Assembly: GCA_945861465.1 (NCBI GenBank)
Contig: CAMAVB010000051.1
Span: forward strand, 1-36,483
Reading direction: 5' to 3'
DNA length: 36,483 nt
From: Candidatus Kuenenia stuttgartensis
Lineage (GTDB): Bacteria; Planctomycetota; Planctomycetia; Planctomycetales; Planctomycetaceae
The notes beneath the pieces were generated by a model that saw only the letters and a program-made list of their open reading frames with translations, was not told the DNA's origin and ran no database searches. A program made the translations under genes and the position numbers. Each line of letters starts with the position of its first letter. The first letter of the stretch is position 1. Positions 4,859 through 36,483 of this stretch are shown here, one piece after another.

Positions 4859-4965
4859 CTAAGTTCCGGCGCAGAAATAACTGTCGTCTTCCGGACGTGG
4901 AGCACGTTTTCAACGTGCTCGGCACGATGGAATCGTGCCCCACTGATTTCTGTCTCAGTCCTAAG
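4859..4965 (-). repeat. 102-bp palindromic element (family 1), copy A
   Basis: The element is flanked by CTAAGTTCC at 4859-4867 and again at 4961-4969, exactly 102 bp apart. Its ends are CCGGCGCAGAAATAA and, inverted, CTGAGACAGAAATCA. Internal hairpin arms are GAGCACGTT/AACGTGCTC and GGCACGATGG/ATCGTGCC. It is in the opposite orientation to the copies at 7039 and 35582. It lies between the sulfotransferase stop and the next gene. Confidence 0.85.
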
Positions 4966-6138: not shown

Positions 6139-6264
6139 ACCCATCAATAAATGCGTGACAAAGCACTGGGCGACGTGCAAAGCAACTTCTGCTTGACCAG
6201 ATTTTCGAAAGCACCTAAGGTTCGCCGTGTGGAATGAAGTGCGAAGTTCGCAAAGGAGTGTGCG

Positions 6265-8256
6265 GTGTTTCAAGTGACGTGGCAGGATGCCACCTCGTGG
6301 AAGCGGCAAGGAGGCGATGAGTCTCTGCCAGCCCCGCCGCCAGATCCAACCGTGACAGCAGTCGGCCTGTTGTGTTGGGAAGAACACTGCGTCGAATGTT
6401 CGATGCCGCAATGTTATGCGACGTGTTCCCTGTTCGTCGCACGCCCGGATCGGAAGTGCGCTCGGTTCGTGTATGGCATCATGCCAAACAGACAAGTGCA
6501 TGGTTTATTCCGATTTGGTGCGGACATCCGATTTCGACGCTGGGCAAAACTGCAGACCGCCTGGCCTGCACGATTGGCGATGCTCGGTACTGGCACTATT
6601 CGGACCCAGACCGCGCTGATGGACTGGACAGAGAAAGTAGTCAGCAATACGGCGAGAGTTTTTCGCCGGTTGTCACCGAAACGACGTCTCAATGGAGCGT
6701 TTACGCTGGCACGTCGCAAGCTGCTTGAGAATCAGTCGGCGTTGCTATCACAGCGTGAGTCAAATCCCCACGCCTTTTTCATAAAATGCTTCTCCAGCGA
6801 ATCGACGGCCTTTCGCATCCAACTGGAACTCGCGACCGATGTGCCCGTGTTTCGCACCAGCCTGCAGATTGAGCCGGGCTGGAATGAACATTATCTCGAC
6901 GCCGCAGAACTGATCGCCCTGGCGGCTGAAAAGCCCGGCATCCTGCGCCTGTCGATCGAAAATGACCGCGAAGTGCGGCTCGTCTTTACGTGGCTGGATT
7001 TTGTGTGCCTGAGTCACGGACTCAGTTCGATCCCGCAACTGAGCAATGGAGCAGAGATATGTGGGGCACGATTCCATCGTGCCGAGCACGTTCAAAACGT
7101 GCTCCACGTCCGGAAGCCGACAGCTATTTCTGCGCCGGTCCTTAACGGTACCGCAAAGCCATCGACTGAGATTCCGAACCATCCTGCCCCGGCCGCGAAA
7201 ATCAAATGTGTGGCGTGGGATCTGGACAACACACTTTGGCACGGCGTGATCGGCGACGCAGGTGCCGCTGGTGTGACTGCGAACGATGACATGATCGGTC
7301 TGATTAAAAGACTGGATGAACGTGGCATTCTGCAGACAATTGTCAGCAAGAATCATTACGACACAGCCTGGCCAAAAATCGAACAACTGGGGCTTGCTGA
7401 CTACTTTCTGTATCCCGCAATTCACTGGGGGCCAAAGAGTCGCAGTGTCCAGCAGATTGCGGACGAACTGAATATCAACGTCGATACACTTGCCGTGATC
7501 GACGATTCACCGTTCGAACGGCGTGAAATCACCAACCTTCTGCCTCAGGTCCGCGTCTTCGACCCCGCGGTCGGTGCATCGCTTATGGATGACACGGCGT
7601 TTGATGTTCCAGTGAGCGACGAATCACGCGGGCGACGCTTGAGTTACCGTACGGAAGCCATGCGGAAACGCATCCATCAATCGTGGCGCGGCGATTATGC
7701 TGAGTTCCTCAGGAGTTGCCACATGGTGCTGCAGATTCGGCATCCGCAGTCGTCAGACTATTCTCGTTGTATCGAACTGTTGCAGCGAAGTAATCAGTTT
7801 AATCTTTCTGGTCGCAGTTATCTGGCAGACGACTTTCATGGACTGTTGCAGTCCGAGCAGCACGACTGTTTCTGCTTCGAAGTCGCTGATGACTTCGGCG
7901 GCTACGGGATTGTGGGTTTCGCTGCATTTGAAACATCCGACGATGGGCCGTATCTGGTTGATTTTGTGCTCTCATGCCGCGTCGCTCAGAAAATGGTCGA
8001 GGCCACTTTTCTGAAATGGTACGCAGCACGGCAGCAGCATATCGGATATCAGCAACTCCGAGCCCGATTGCGAGTCACCTCACGCAACGCACCGCTTCGC
8101 GACGTCTTGAAACAATTGGGATTTGTCGGTCTGACCTCCGAAGACGATCGACAGCTGCTGGAACTTCAATTTGAGGAAGTCGTCGTTATCCCCGACGTGT
8201 TTACAATTGACGATCAGACTGAAATCGGAAATCCGTATGAGAAAGTGGCGGCATGA
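6265..8256 (+). CDS. FkbH-like HAD-IIIC / GNAT protein with an in-frame repeat insertion
   Basis: FkbH proteins load a glyceryl unit from 1,3-bisphosphoglycerate onto carrier proteins, and relatives act in glycan and secondary-metabolite loci. The HAD phosphatase motif is WDLDNTLWHGVIGD, with catalytic Asp319 and Asp321. VIDDSPFER follows, and then a GNAT-like C-terminal half (about 480-645). Residues 259-292 are encoded by the family 1 palindromic element, just before the HAD domain. GTG at 6265 has AAAGGAG at 6252-6258, but the first 120 or so residues are Arg/Trp/Cys-rich and unlike the rest. Another frame (6372-6728) reads well there, so the true N-terminus or an old frameshift is unresolved. 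The stop overlaps the next start (ATGA). Confidence 0.8.
   Translation: MFQVTWQDATSWKRQGGDESLPAPPPDPTVTAVGLLCWEEHCVECSMPQCYATCSLFVARPDRKCARFVYGIMPNRQVHGLFRFGADIRFRRWAKLQTAWPARLAMLGTGTIRTQTALMDWTEKVVSNTARVFRRLSPKRRLNGAFTLARRKLLENQSALLSQRESNPHAFFIKCFSSESTAFRIQLELATDVPVFRTSLQIEPGWNEHYLDAAELIALAAEKPGILRLSIENDREVRLVFTWLDFVCLSHGLSSIPQLSNGAEICGARFHRAEHVQNVLHVRKPTAISAPVLNGTAKPSTEIPNHPAPAAKIKCVAWDLDNTLWHGVIGDAGAAGVTANDDMIGLIKRLDERGILQTIVSKNHYDTAWPKIEQLGLADYFLYPAIHWGPKSRSVQQIADELNINVDTLAVIDDSPFERREITNLLPQVRVFDPAVGASLMDDTAFDVPVSDESRGRRLSYRTEAMRKRIHQSWRGDYAEFLRSCHMVLQIRHPQSSDYSRCIELLQRSNQFNLSGRSYLADDFHGLLQSEQHDCFCFEVADDFGGYGIVGFAAFETSDDGPYLVDFVLSCRVAQKMVEATFLKWYAARQQHIGYQQLRARLRVTSRNAPLRDVLKQLGFVGLTSEDDRQLLELQFEEVVVIPDVFTIDDQTEIGNPYEKVAA
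7039..7145 (+). repeat. 102-bp palindromic element (family 1), copy B, inside the FkbH-like gene
   Basis: From GTGGGGCACG to GCGCCGGTC the sequence closely matches the copy at 35582, without gaps. The right flank is CTTAA at 7141; the position 102 bp upstream reads CTGAG, a plausible decayed duplicate. The left terminus is eroded (AGCAGAGATATG instead of ACAGAAATAAG), so this copy looks old. It adds 34 codons without a frameshift. Confidence 0.8.
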
Positions 8257-26940: not shown

Positions 26941-27043
26941 GGACCGCTCGAGAAATAACTGTCTCTTTTTATACCCCTCACCCTGCCCTCTCCCCTTCCA
27001 GGGGAGAGGAGGATGCGGTCAATTATTTCTCGAACGGTCCTTA
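26938..27043. mobile_element. Family 2 MITE-like element, copy 2 (uninterrupted)
   Basis: This 106-bp copy matches 20329-20586 outside the nested insert, with TTA-GGACCGCTCGAGAAATAA at the left and the inverted GGACCGTTCGAGAAATAA-TTA end at the right. It provides the empty-site sequence for the nested insertion. It lies 36 bp before the hydrolase gene and could influence that promoter. Confidence 0.85.
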
Positions 27044-31344: not shown

Positions 31345-31512
31345 TTAAGGACTGAGACAGATATAAGTGGGGCACGATTCCATCGTGCCGGGCCCGTTAA
31401 AAACGTGCCATCGGGGTTACAAACGTGCCATCGTGCCGTGCCATCGTGCCGGGCACGTTACAAACGTGCCCCACGTCCAAACGACGACAGTTATGTCTGC
31501 GCCGGTCTTAAG
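31345..31512 (+). repeat. 102-bp palindromic element (family 1), copy D, expanded
   Basis: TTAAG at 31345-31349 and 31508-31512 flank it as an exact direct repeat. The ends are GACTGAGACAGATATAAG and the inverted GACCGGCGCAGACATAACTG. The interior is enlarged to 163 bp by repeats of GTGCCATCG and ACGTTACAAACGTGCC. It lies just upstream of mtaB. Confidence 0.85.
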
Positions 31513-35167: not shown

Positions 35168-36483
35168 ATGCAGGAAATCCGCGTCCACTTTTCGCCGTCC
35201 GACGAAAACAGCCACCGCGTCTCGCTCATCGATGGCGAAGGCAACAGCGTCGGTGTCGAGGTGTCGTTTTCGCCTTTCCTCGGCGACGACGATTACGACA
35301 ACATGCGCTGGTATCTGGAAGAGTACATGGAACTGCCCGATGGCGGTGCCGTCGTCCGGGCCAGGCACATTGAAGCCGATCTGCGGAAATGGGGCCGGCA
35401 ACTCCACGATGCCATTTTCTCCGCACCGGAAAACAAGGCAGCGCTCGAGACATTGTGCAACGCCGAAGAACCACGCGAGCTGACCATCGCCACGAGCGAT
35501 CCGGCCCTGCTGCGGCTGCCGTGGGAACTCATGGCCGACGCGACGGGAAGTCTGGCTCTGCGCGTCTCCGTGCGGCGGCAGCTTGAGACTGAGACAGAAA
35601 TAAGTGGGGCACGATTCCATCGTGCCGAGCACGTTGAAAACGTGCTCCACGTCCGGAAGACGACAGTTATTTCTGTGCCGGTCCTTGAGGTCCGTGGCAA
35701 ACTCGCGGCCCGCGAAGAAAAGCTGCCGCTGCGGATTCTGTACATCGTCAGCCGACCCGAGGACGCCGGGTTCATCGATCCTCGTGTCACGACGAAAGCA
35801 CTGTTCGCGGCGCTCGATCCGCTGTCAACGAATGTGCAGCTTGACTTCTGCCGCCCGCCGACGCTGGCACGTATGGGCGAAATGCTCCGCGACGCTCAAC
35901 AGGCGGGCGATGACTACGATGTCGTCCATTTCGACGGGCACGGAACTTTCATGGATCGGACGCAGCTCGGAGCACTGTGTTTTGAGCAGAGCGATGATGG
36001 CACAGGCGACTCAAAGACGGATCTGGTTCCGGCCGATCAGCTCGGCAATCTGTTTGCCAGGCACAAGATCCCTCTCGTTGTGCTCGAGGCCTGCCGCAGT
36101 GCTCAGATGAAAACGATCGTCTTCCGCTCCGTCGCCCCGCGACTCATTCAGGCGGGCGTGGGTAGTGTGCTGTCGATGGGTCACGCCGTGCATGTCGAAG
36201 CGGCCAGGATTCTGCTGGATCGTTTCTACCGCGAACTGGTCCGCGGCACCACGATTGGCCACGCCGTCGCGGAAGGACGCAGTGCCCTCCACGATTCGCC
36301 AGCGAGATGGCTGGAATACGGCCCCGGGGCTCGCACGCTCAAGCTGCAGGACTGGTTCCTGCCGCATCTTTATCAGCGAGGTCTGGACGATCGGCTGCTT
36401 CCCACCGGCGAGCGGCAGGGCGTCAGCCCTCCGAGTTCACGCACCGCCGATACCGCACTGCTCGGAGGGCTGACGCCCTGCCG
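35168..36483 (+). CDS. CHAT-domain cysteine protease, 3' partial, carrying two repeat insertions
   Basis: At least 438 residues are open from ATG 35168 to the window end. CHAT proteins are caspase-like proteases. VVHFDGHGTF holds catalytic His258 and VVLEACRSAQ holds Cys309, with LPWELM and ILYIVSRP before them, as expected for PF12770. Residues 139-172 come from the family 1 palindromic element, inserted in frame into the loop after RRQ, where removing it restores RRQLEVRGK. From about 414, GERQGVSPPS and then LLGGLTPC come from an inverted pair of another repeat. The remaining C-terminus is outside the window. Whether the two insertions leave the protease active is not known. No partner gene is visible. 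Confidence 0.85.
   Translation, partial: MQEIRVHFSPSDENSHRVSLIDGEGNSVGVEVSFSPFLGDDDYDNMRWYLEEYMELPDGGAVVRARHIEADLRKWGRQLHDAIFSAPENKAALETLCNAEEPRELTIATSDPALLRLPWELMADATGSLALRVSVRRQLETETEISGARFHRAEHVENVLHVRKTTVISVPVLEVRGKLAAREEKLPLRILYIVSRPEDAGFIDPRVTTKALFAALDPLSTNVQLDFCRPPTLARMGEMLRDAQQAGDDYDVVHFDGHGTFMDRTQLGALCFEQSDDGTGDSKTDLVPADQLGNLFARHKIPLVVLEACRSAQMKTIVFRSVAPRLIQAGVGSVLSMGHAVHVEAARILLDRFYRELVRGTTIGHAVAEGRSALHDSPARWLEYGPGARTLKLQDWFLPHLYQRGLDDRLLPTGERQGVSPPSSRTADTALLGGLTPC
35582..35689 (+). repeat. 102-bp palindromic element (family 1), copy E, inside the CHAT gene
   Basis: CTTGAG occurs at 35582-35587 and at 35684-35689, exactly 102 bp (34 codons) apart. The ends are GACTGAGACAGAAATAAG and, inverted, GACCGGCACAGAAATAACTG. 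Internal stems are GGCACGATTCCATCGTGCC and GAGCACGTTGAAAACGTGCTC in outline. Both termini are intact, so it appears younger than the copy in the FkbH-like gene. Confidence 0.9.
36407..36483. repeat. Inverted pair of the GERQGVSPPS-coding repeat in the CHAT gene
   Basis: GGCGAGCGGCAGGGCGTCAG at 36407 continues with CCCTCCGAGT to 36436. Its reverse complement, CTCGGAGGGC followed by TGACGCCCTGCCG, runs from 36461 to the window end. The direct copy equals those at 24891 and 24981. Confidence 0.85.

Follow-up and report, generated by a model that had tools for sequence, protein, structure and literature searches.

A 99 bp palindromic element lying in frame in a CHAT protein gene of Candidatus Kuenenia stuttgartensis: a multicopy miniature inverted-repeat transposable element probably moved by an ISAzo13-family transposase

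Background

How the palindromic elements of Rickettsia (Rickettsia palindromic elements, RPEs) move is, to our knowledge, still open. As far as the excerpts of PMC10969869 and PMC3767692 go, they are palindromes of about 100-150 bp that lie in frame in unrelated genes and add a peptide to the product. The Coxiella elements QMITE1 and QMITE2, both miniature inverted-repeat transposable elements (MITEs), contribute residues to proteins, some of them in frame, according to the cited portion of PMC5896051. Here we describe a palindromic element of 99 bp, family A, inserted in frame in a CHAT-domain protein gene of Candidatus Kuenenia stuttgartensis. The gene runs to the end of the stretch analysed, hereafter the window, which comprises 36,483 nucleotides (contig CAMAVB010000051.1 of assembly GCA_945861465.1, positions 1 to 36,483).

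The element works like RPEs and the in-frame Coxiella MITEs, and is classified as a MITE. Like the bacterial and archaeal MITEs outlined in the excerpt of PMC3119063, it is short and multicopy, possesses terminal inverted repeats and a duplication of fixed length and lacks a transposase gene, but it differs from them by an interior of strong hairpins and by its repeated in-frame presence in genes. Coxiella QMITE2, compared by its description in the same portion of PMC5896051, measures 150-190 bp with direct repeats of 7-11 nt, against 99 bp and 3 bp here. RPEs share palindromy, approximate size (100-150 bp) and in-frame presence in protein genes with the element, a likeness of behaviour; the 3 bp target duplications and the transposon-like ends set it apart. 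Furthermore, RPE orthologues share insertion loci in the excerpt of PMC3767692, whereas the insertion of our element in a tRNA nucleotidyltransferase gene is absent from same-genus orthologues. A preliminary description of the window had likened the CHAT insertion to RPEs; this holds for the behaviour, but the element is a genome-wide MITE and not special to the CHAT gene. Among the literature matches listed, titles and abstract openings describe neither ISAzo13 MITEs nor in-frame palindromes in planctomycetes, and neither is described in the accessible part of PMC9208149, which mentions both ISAzo13 and MITE.

We consider it likely that the element is a non-autonomous MITE which an ISAzo13-family DDE transposase mobilises in trans, with a TWA target (W = A or T), a 3 bp duplication and in-frame survivors. 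The transposase (PF07592) would recognise the terminal arms, and the MITE would insert mostly at TWA and duplicate these 3 bp. An insertion in a gene in one of three stop-free frames would add 34 residues without breaking the gene, because 102 is divisible by three and three of the six frames are usually without a stop; inside genes, only insertions in such frames would survive. Since this protein-invading palindrome comes with target duplications, has an insertion that 14/14 same-genus orthologues examined lack and shares its genome with a candidate transposase, it should be possible to test directly how it moves and what becomes of the inserted peptide. Annotators who meet nearly the same 34 residues in unrelated proteins of this genome are looking at mobile DNA.

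The insertion in the CHAT gene

The CHAT-domain protein gene (35168..36481, + strand; PF12770, E 9.8e-23) has a frame that is still open at the contig end. CTTGAG occurs in it at 35582-35587 and again at 35684-35689, spaced 102 bp apart with an inverted repeat in between; the palindromic element that the preliminary description saw bracketed by this repeat is borne out by the sequence, by the z-scores of its fold and by a multicopy family. Taken alone, the repeat is weak evidence, as 23 of 36,375 window positions start a 6-mer repeat at 102 bp. Because 6 bp repeats at such spacing are common by chance, the case for an insertion rests on the fold, the multicopy family and the absence from homologues.

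The insert is missing from all 12 aligned CHAT homologues (13 were found; L176 was dropped for a stop codon in its stretch). The closer homologues (Verrucomicrobiaceae, Accumulibacter and two Holophagales loci) show 55-75% identity in the best segment, the distant ones (cyanobacteria, an Azospirillaceae, a Parabeggiatoa) 29-35%. Between the motifs RR and PLRIL the four closest homologues have, by our own count, the length of the window protein minus exactly 34 residues, and the eight distant ones are off by up to about 3 residues. A search of the 17 remaining same-genus genomes yielded no CHAT homologue at E <= 1e-20. The added peptide corresponds to residues 141-174 or, equivalently, 139-172. 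His258 and Cys309 are located downstream of it, as first described, and are invariant across the alignment; the in-frame gain of 34 codons is likewise upheld, by the homologues and by sister copies. The preliminary description had named distant orthologues with the same 34 residues as the sign of an ancestral segment. Within the set of homologues found, the lack of these residues in 12/12 aligned ones refutes an ancestral part of the CHAT protein, and this together with the multicopy family leaves an ancestral segment or a chance repeat with next to no probability, common as 6 bp repeats at this spacing are.

The AlphaFold2 model of the CHAT protein has a mean pLDDT (predicted local distance difference test) of 74.4, with values below 50 at residues 143-182, which overlap the insert, at 311-320 and at 416-438; a low value at the insert is expected anyway, because no other alignment row covers it. 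A second, unrelated inverted repeat (GGCAGGGCGTCAGCCCTCCGAG...) is present at window positions 36415-36483, inside the CHAT frame, past the end of the CHAT homologues and running off the contig end. Similar motifs occur in loci L114 and L115.

Structure of the element

With boundaries taken from sister copies, the element occupies 35586..35684 (+ strand) and is read in its frame +2. Aligned copies delimit it as GGACTGAG...CCGGTCC, and the family-A end is written as GGACCGGCGCAGAAATAACTG; the CHAT copy starts with A where the family has G. The left (35586..35606) and right (35664..35684) terminal arms form an inverted repeat, the right one being nearest to ISAzo13-type ends. Between them are located internal hairpin 1 (GGCACGAT/ATCGTGCC, 35608..35626), internal hairpin 2 (GAGCACGTT/AACGTGCTC, 35627..35647), which shows a compensatory A-T/G-C change within the family, and a small third hairpin (CGTC/GACG, 35650..35662), all on the + strand.

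The predicted fold of the element strand leads from a terminal stem to two hairpins with perfect stems and then to the small third one, and its z-scores relative to shuffles are -7.8 as RNA and -8.9 as DNA. Over 61 distinct copies, 88.6% of the cells are paired in the terminal helix (18 pairs), 99% in internal hairpin 1 and 97.4% in internal hairpin 2. Covariation and percent paired exceed 500/500 shuffles; pairs changed on both sides number five, which 83/500 shuffles match, and the number of pair types is matched by 71/500. The main covariation signal is a single compensatory pair, present in 22/61 distinct copies and probably a single event.

Target duplication

Among the 66 short elements bearing ends of this type, 40 have identical 3 bp flanks, compared to 2.2% of random spans. 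They read TAA (20), TTA (17), TTG (1, the CHAT copy), CTG (1) and AAA (1). Because so many sister elements have identical 3 bp flanks, the CTTGAG repeat is read as a 3 bp duplication plus a coincidence at the border: the two TTG copies lie at 35583..35585 and 35685..35687 (+ strand), and in the rest of the match a host base happens to agree with a terminal base of the element, given the boundaries from other copies. The CHAT copy alone is equally compatible with a 4 bp duplication, TTGA. The duplicated target bases of the preliminary description are therefore confirmed as such, but their size is corrected by the sister copies from 6 to 3 bp. Element and duplication together (99 + 3 = 102 bp) equal 34 codons.

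These duplications also bear on a counterpart of RPEs that would spread without a transposase, e.g. by hairpin DNA copying or gene conversion. Such a counterpart would share the behaviour of RPEs (a palindrome of about 100 bp lying in frame in genes unrelated to each other; PMC10969869, excerpt), and the inner hairpins are indeed better kept than the arms. However, the 3 bp duplications and the resemblance of the ends to those of ISAzo13 speak for a DDE transposase, and the ends are common to elements with unrelated interiors, so that we regard spread of this kind as improbable.

Copies in the genome

The window's own genome (G000; 8.22 Mb, 474 contigs) possesses the element in many copies. 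Places with 93-100% identity number 40, which is the number scored from 396 first-look candidates. Exact copies of the hairpin core amount to 237 (117 + 120) genome-wide and exact ends with the pattern TWAGGACNGNNNNAGAAATAA to 414 (228 + 186), with zero matches in either control (reversed pattern for the core). In a sample, 52 exact cores fall into 48 clusters; scaled, the 237 cores correspond to about 220 elements. A consensus search of 809 kb of sequence, a biased sample of regions mostly chosen from contigs already showing exact hairpin cores, gave 76 matches, 45 of them full length. The 69 copies of exactly 99 bp share between 87 and 99 of their 99 positions with the consensus, with a median of 95. 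Duplicates were removed in two ways, leaving 66 copies of 99 bp for the long-frame count and 69 for the open-frame count, and one per-copy analysis took 68 of the 69 (L030:1735-1833 left out). With a loose pattern allowing 4 mismatches, 49 of 143 elements were classed as "other"; these are mostly chance matches and were excluded from later copy counts.

Around 66 hairpin cores of the sample, both arms are present in 51 cases, only the right arm in 12, only the left in three, and no core lacks both; some of the right-only cores belong to the interior of tandem copies, where the left arm is farther away than the 30 bases searched. This distribution is relevant for repetitive extragenic palindromic (REP) elements and REPINs, which are spread by REP-associated tyrosine transposases (RAYTs) without target duplication. 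They are short multicopy palindromes like our element, but with units of 20-40 bp, and REP families occur in Planctomycetes (PMC3733652, in the excerpt available), against 99 bp with duplications here. A REP or REPIN moved by a RAYT (Y1) transposase would fit the palindromic structure and the 19 Y1_Tnp matches in the genome. It was nevertheless rejected as very unlikely, given the length of 99 bp, the 3 bp target duplications, the long terminal inverted repeats, the lack of any armless core and the different repeats at Y1 loci. As an observation apart, further inverted repeats, e.g. GGCTCGCCGTTAAACGA and GCCCGTTGGGCC, occur near Y1 transposase genes (L119, L106, L120 and others in L102-L120).

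In the window, another family-A copy is located at 4863..4961 (- strand) with TTA flanks, and an expanded copy of 160 bp with extra hairpin units at 31349..31508 (+ strand) with TAA flanks. Additional hairpin units are also present in L078:831-979 (149 bp), and these expanded elements look as though the interior had slipped in replication. L076:964-1062 and L086:4239-4337 contain an inverted copy of hairpin 1 in place of hairpin 2.

Reading frames and copies inside other genes

Joined frames are defined here as reading frames after removal of the element and one repeat. Among 66 copies of 99 bp, eight are flanked on each side by 100 or more codons of joined frame. In 8/8 of them the element stays free of stops, being read in its frame +2 five times, -1 twice and -2 once. 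The last of these (L086) is doubtful, as it looks like sequence upstream of a start codon, and does not belong to the domain-supported set; for L010 no domain was matched.

Four genes contain an in-frame copy that has domains or homologous sequence on either side, namely those of the CHAT protein, an Lhr helicase, a TIR/NB-ARC/TPR protein and a tRNA nucleotidyltransferase, the latter three with domains on both sides. Orthologues of the tRNA nucleotidyltransferase (E <= 1e-30) are present in 14 of the 17 other same-genus genomes, and 14/14 are without the insert. For Lhr, an orthologue at E <= 1e-100 occurs in G014 only and the automatic alignment is unreliable at the insertion site; by our own count the G014 linker is 28 residues long and that of G000 exceeds it by 34. 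Two further in-frame copies have a domain on one side only, in an FkbH-type open reading frame (ORF) and in an FGE-sulfatase-domain ORF; as the domain follows the element in each case, the element could sit near the gene start in both. The former copy (7043..7141, + strand; ORF 6238-8253) has a decayed left arm and TGA/TTA flanks and lies upstream of the FkbH domain (TIGR01686 at 322-629 of 672 residues). The 268 residues ahead of it have no Pfam match at E <= 1 and none in the plasmid collection, and the stretch ahead of the element in the FGE-sulfatase-domain ORF has no Pfam match at E <= 1 either.

Three of the six element frames are generally open (in 67, 66 and 63 of 69 copies). Long frames hold few copies, all of them stop-free, which is most simply read, on small numbers, as selection against other insertions; out-of-frame insertions would be lost selectively, and the proteins are presumably translated with the insert and functional. 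Alternatively, the insert might be removed from the RNA or skipped, with a protein lacking it. The strong RNA fold would suit such removal, but the open element in 8/8 long joined frames would not be needed, and a search of 35500-35780 returned zero Rfam families at E <= 1; we hold this to be highly improbable. An element shaped for coding is unsupported: the open-frame count of family A is reached by 2030 of 5000 Markov-1 sequences, and that of the G364 element described below by 1867 of 5000. The lengths of family-B copies and the positions of the G364 elements, given below, do not support it either.

Candidate transposase

The 3 bp TWA target, which we take to be indicative of ISAzo13, gave this family as a lead. 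PF07592 was searched in 21 genomes: G000 possesses two full-length copies and a fragment, G011 a match with a stop and G012 a sub-threshold match. At E <= 1e-60 it is present in 55 of 297 genomes of the class. Among 32 PF07592 loci examined, 18 have inverted repeats judged to be the ends of insertion sequences (IS). These ISAzo13 elements, of about 1.3 kb with a transposase gene, share with the MITE a GG tip, AAATAACT or a sequence near it at about positions 13-20, and a TWA target with 3 bp duplication (37/40 TAA/TTA in the MITE-type elements; 27/36 IS ends next to TAA/TTA and 8/18 IS with identical 3 bp flanks); their ends are similar, not identical, to those of the MITE.

A profile was built from the 36 ends of the 18 IS and scored against 431,450 background 25-mers, which still contained family B, so that some high-scoring sites may be MITE ends. 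The family-A right end scores 24.7 and the G364 end 23.4, within the leave-one-out range of the IS ends (8.7-35.0), and none of the 431,450 background 25-mers scores as high as either, with or without the three flank columns. At PF01609 and Y1 loci, the best inverted repeats look different, and scores above 12 belong to MITE-like sites.

Several observations weigh against an ISAzo13-type mobiliser. The left end and family B score 11.7-12.5, as do 4-8 background sites (52-75 without the flank columns), and unrelated sites at the PF01609 and Y1 control loci reach 11.4. The two full PF07592 copies of G000 have related but different ends, flanked by TAA with TTA, and the sequences examined yielded no autonomous element sharing the ends of the MITE. 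The 18 IS were selected visually among repeat pairs that had to begin with GG, leaving out 14 of the 32 loci; 8/18 have identical 3 bp flanks, and 27/36 ends adjoin TAA/TTA. G014 possesses the ends and has no PF07592 match at E 1e-60. Judged mainly from one end and the target, a mobiliser of ISAzo13 type is still what we infer on good grounds. Another DDE family with 3 bp targets, lost or encoded in DNA outside that examined, would accommodate the missing parent and the weak fit of the left arm and family B; we deem it unlikely in view of the right and G364 ends, which beat every background site on the ISAzo13 profile, and of the inverted repeats at PF01609 loci, which are unlike the MITE ends.

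Distribution and related elements

Among 40 genomes, family A matches at E <= 0.001 in G000 and G039, in the latter with 76-78% along the inner part, but in 0/17 same-genus and 0/7 same-family genomes. The end pattern occurs in 3/40 relatives (G000, G014, G011) and in 11 of 397 genomes of the class, six of them with a single site; these single sites may be chance, because the reversed control also matches one site in each of two genomes.

Since such ends occur with other interiors in G000 itself (family B), G014, G011 and G364, which belongs to another family of the class, the ends stay constant whereas the palindromic interior can be exchanged. A family-B element of 100 bp with TTA flanks is located in the window at 26941..27040 (+ strand); five of nine family-B copies measure 100 or 101 bp and are hence not frame-neutral with 3 bp. 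In G364, 7 of 8 places were read; they are 99 bp (five) or 100 bp (two) long, have identical TTA or TAA flanks in 7/7, and 0/7 lie in joined frames of at least 60 codons on both sides (8 ends found). A whole class of ISAzo13-driven MITEs, with conserved ends and swappable palindromic interiors, that supplies new loops to the proteins of this bacterial class is a tentative and rather doubtful extension; if true, the RPE phenomenon would here have a transposase that can be named.

A possible longer relative, spanning 453 bp in locus L159 of G252, is flanked by TTA, shares the left end and has a right end that matches less strictly.
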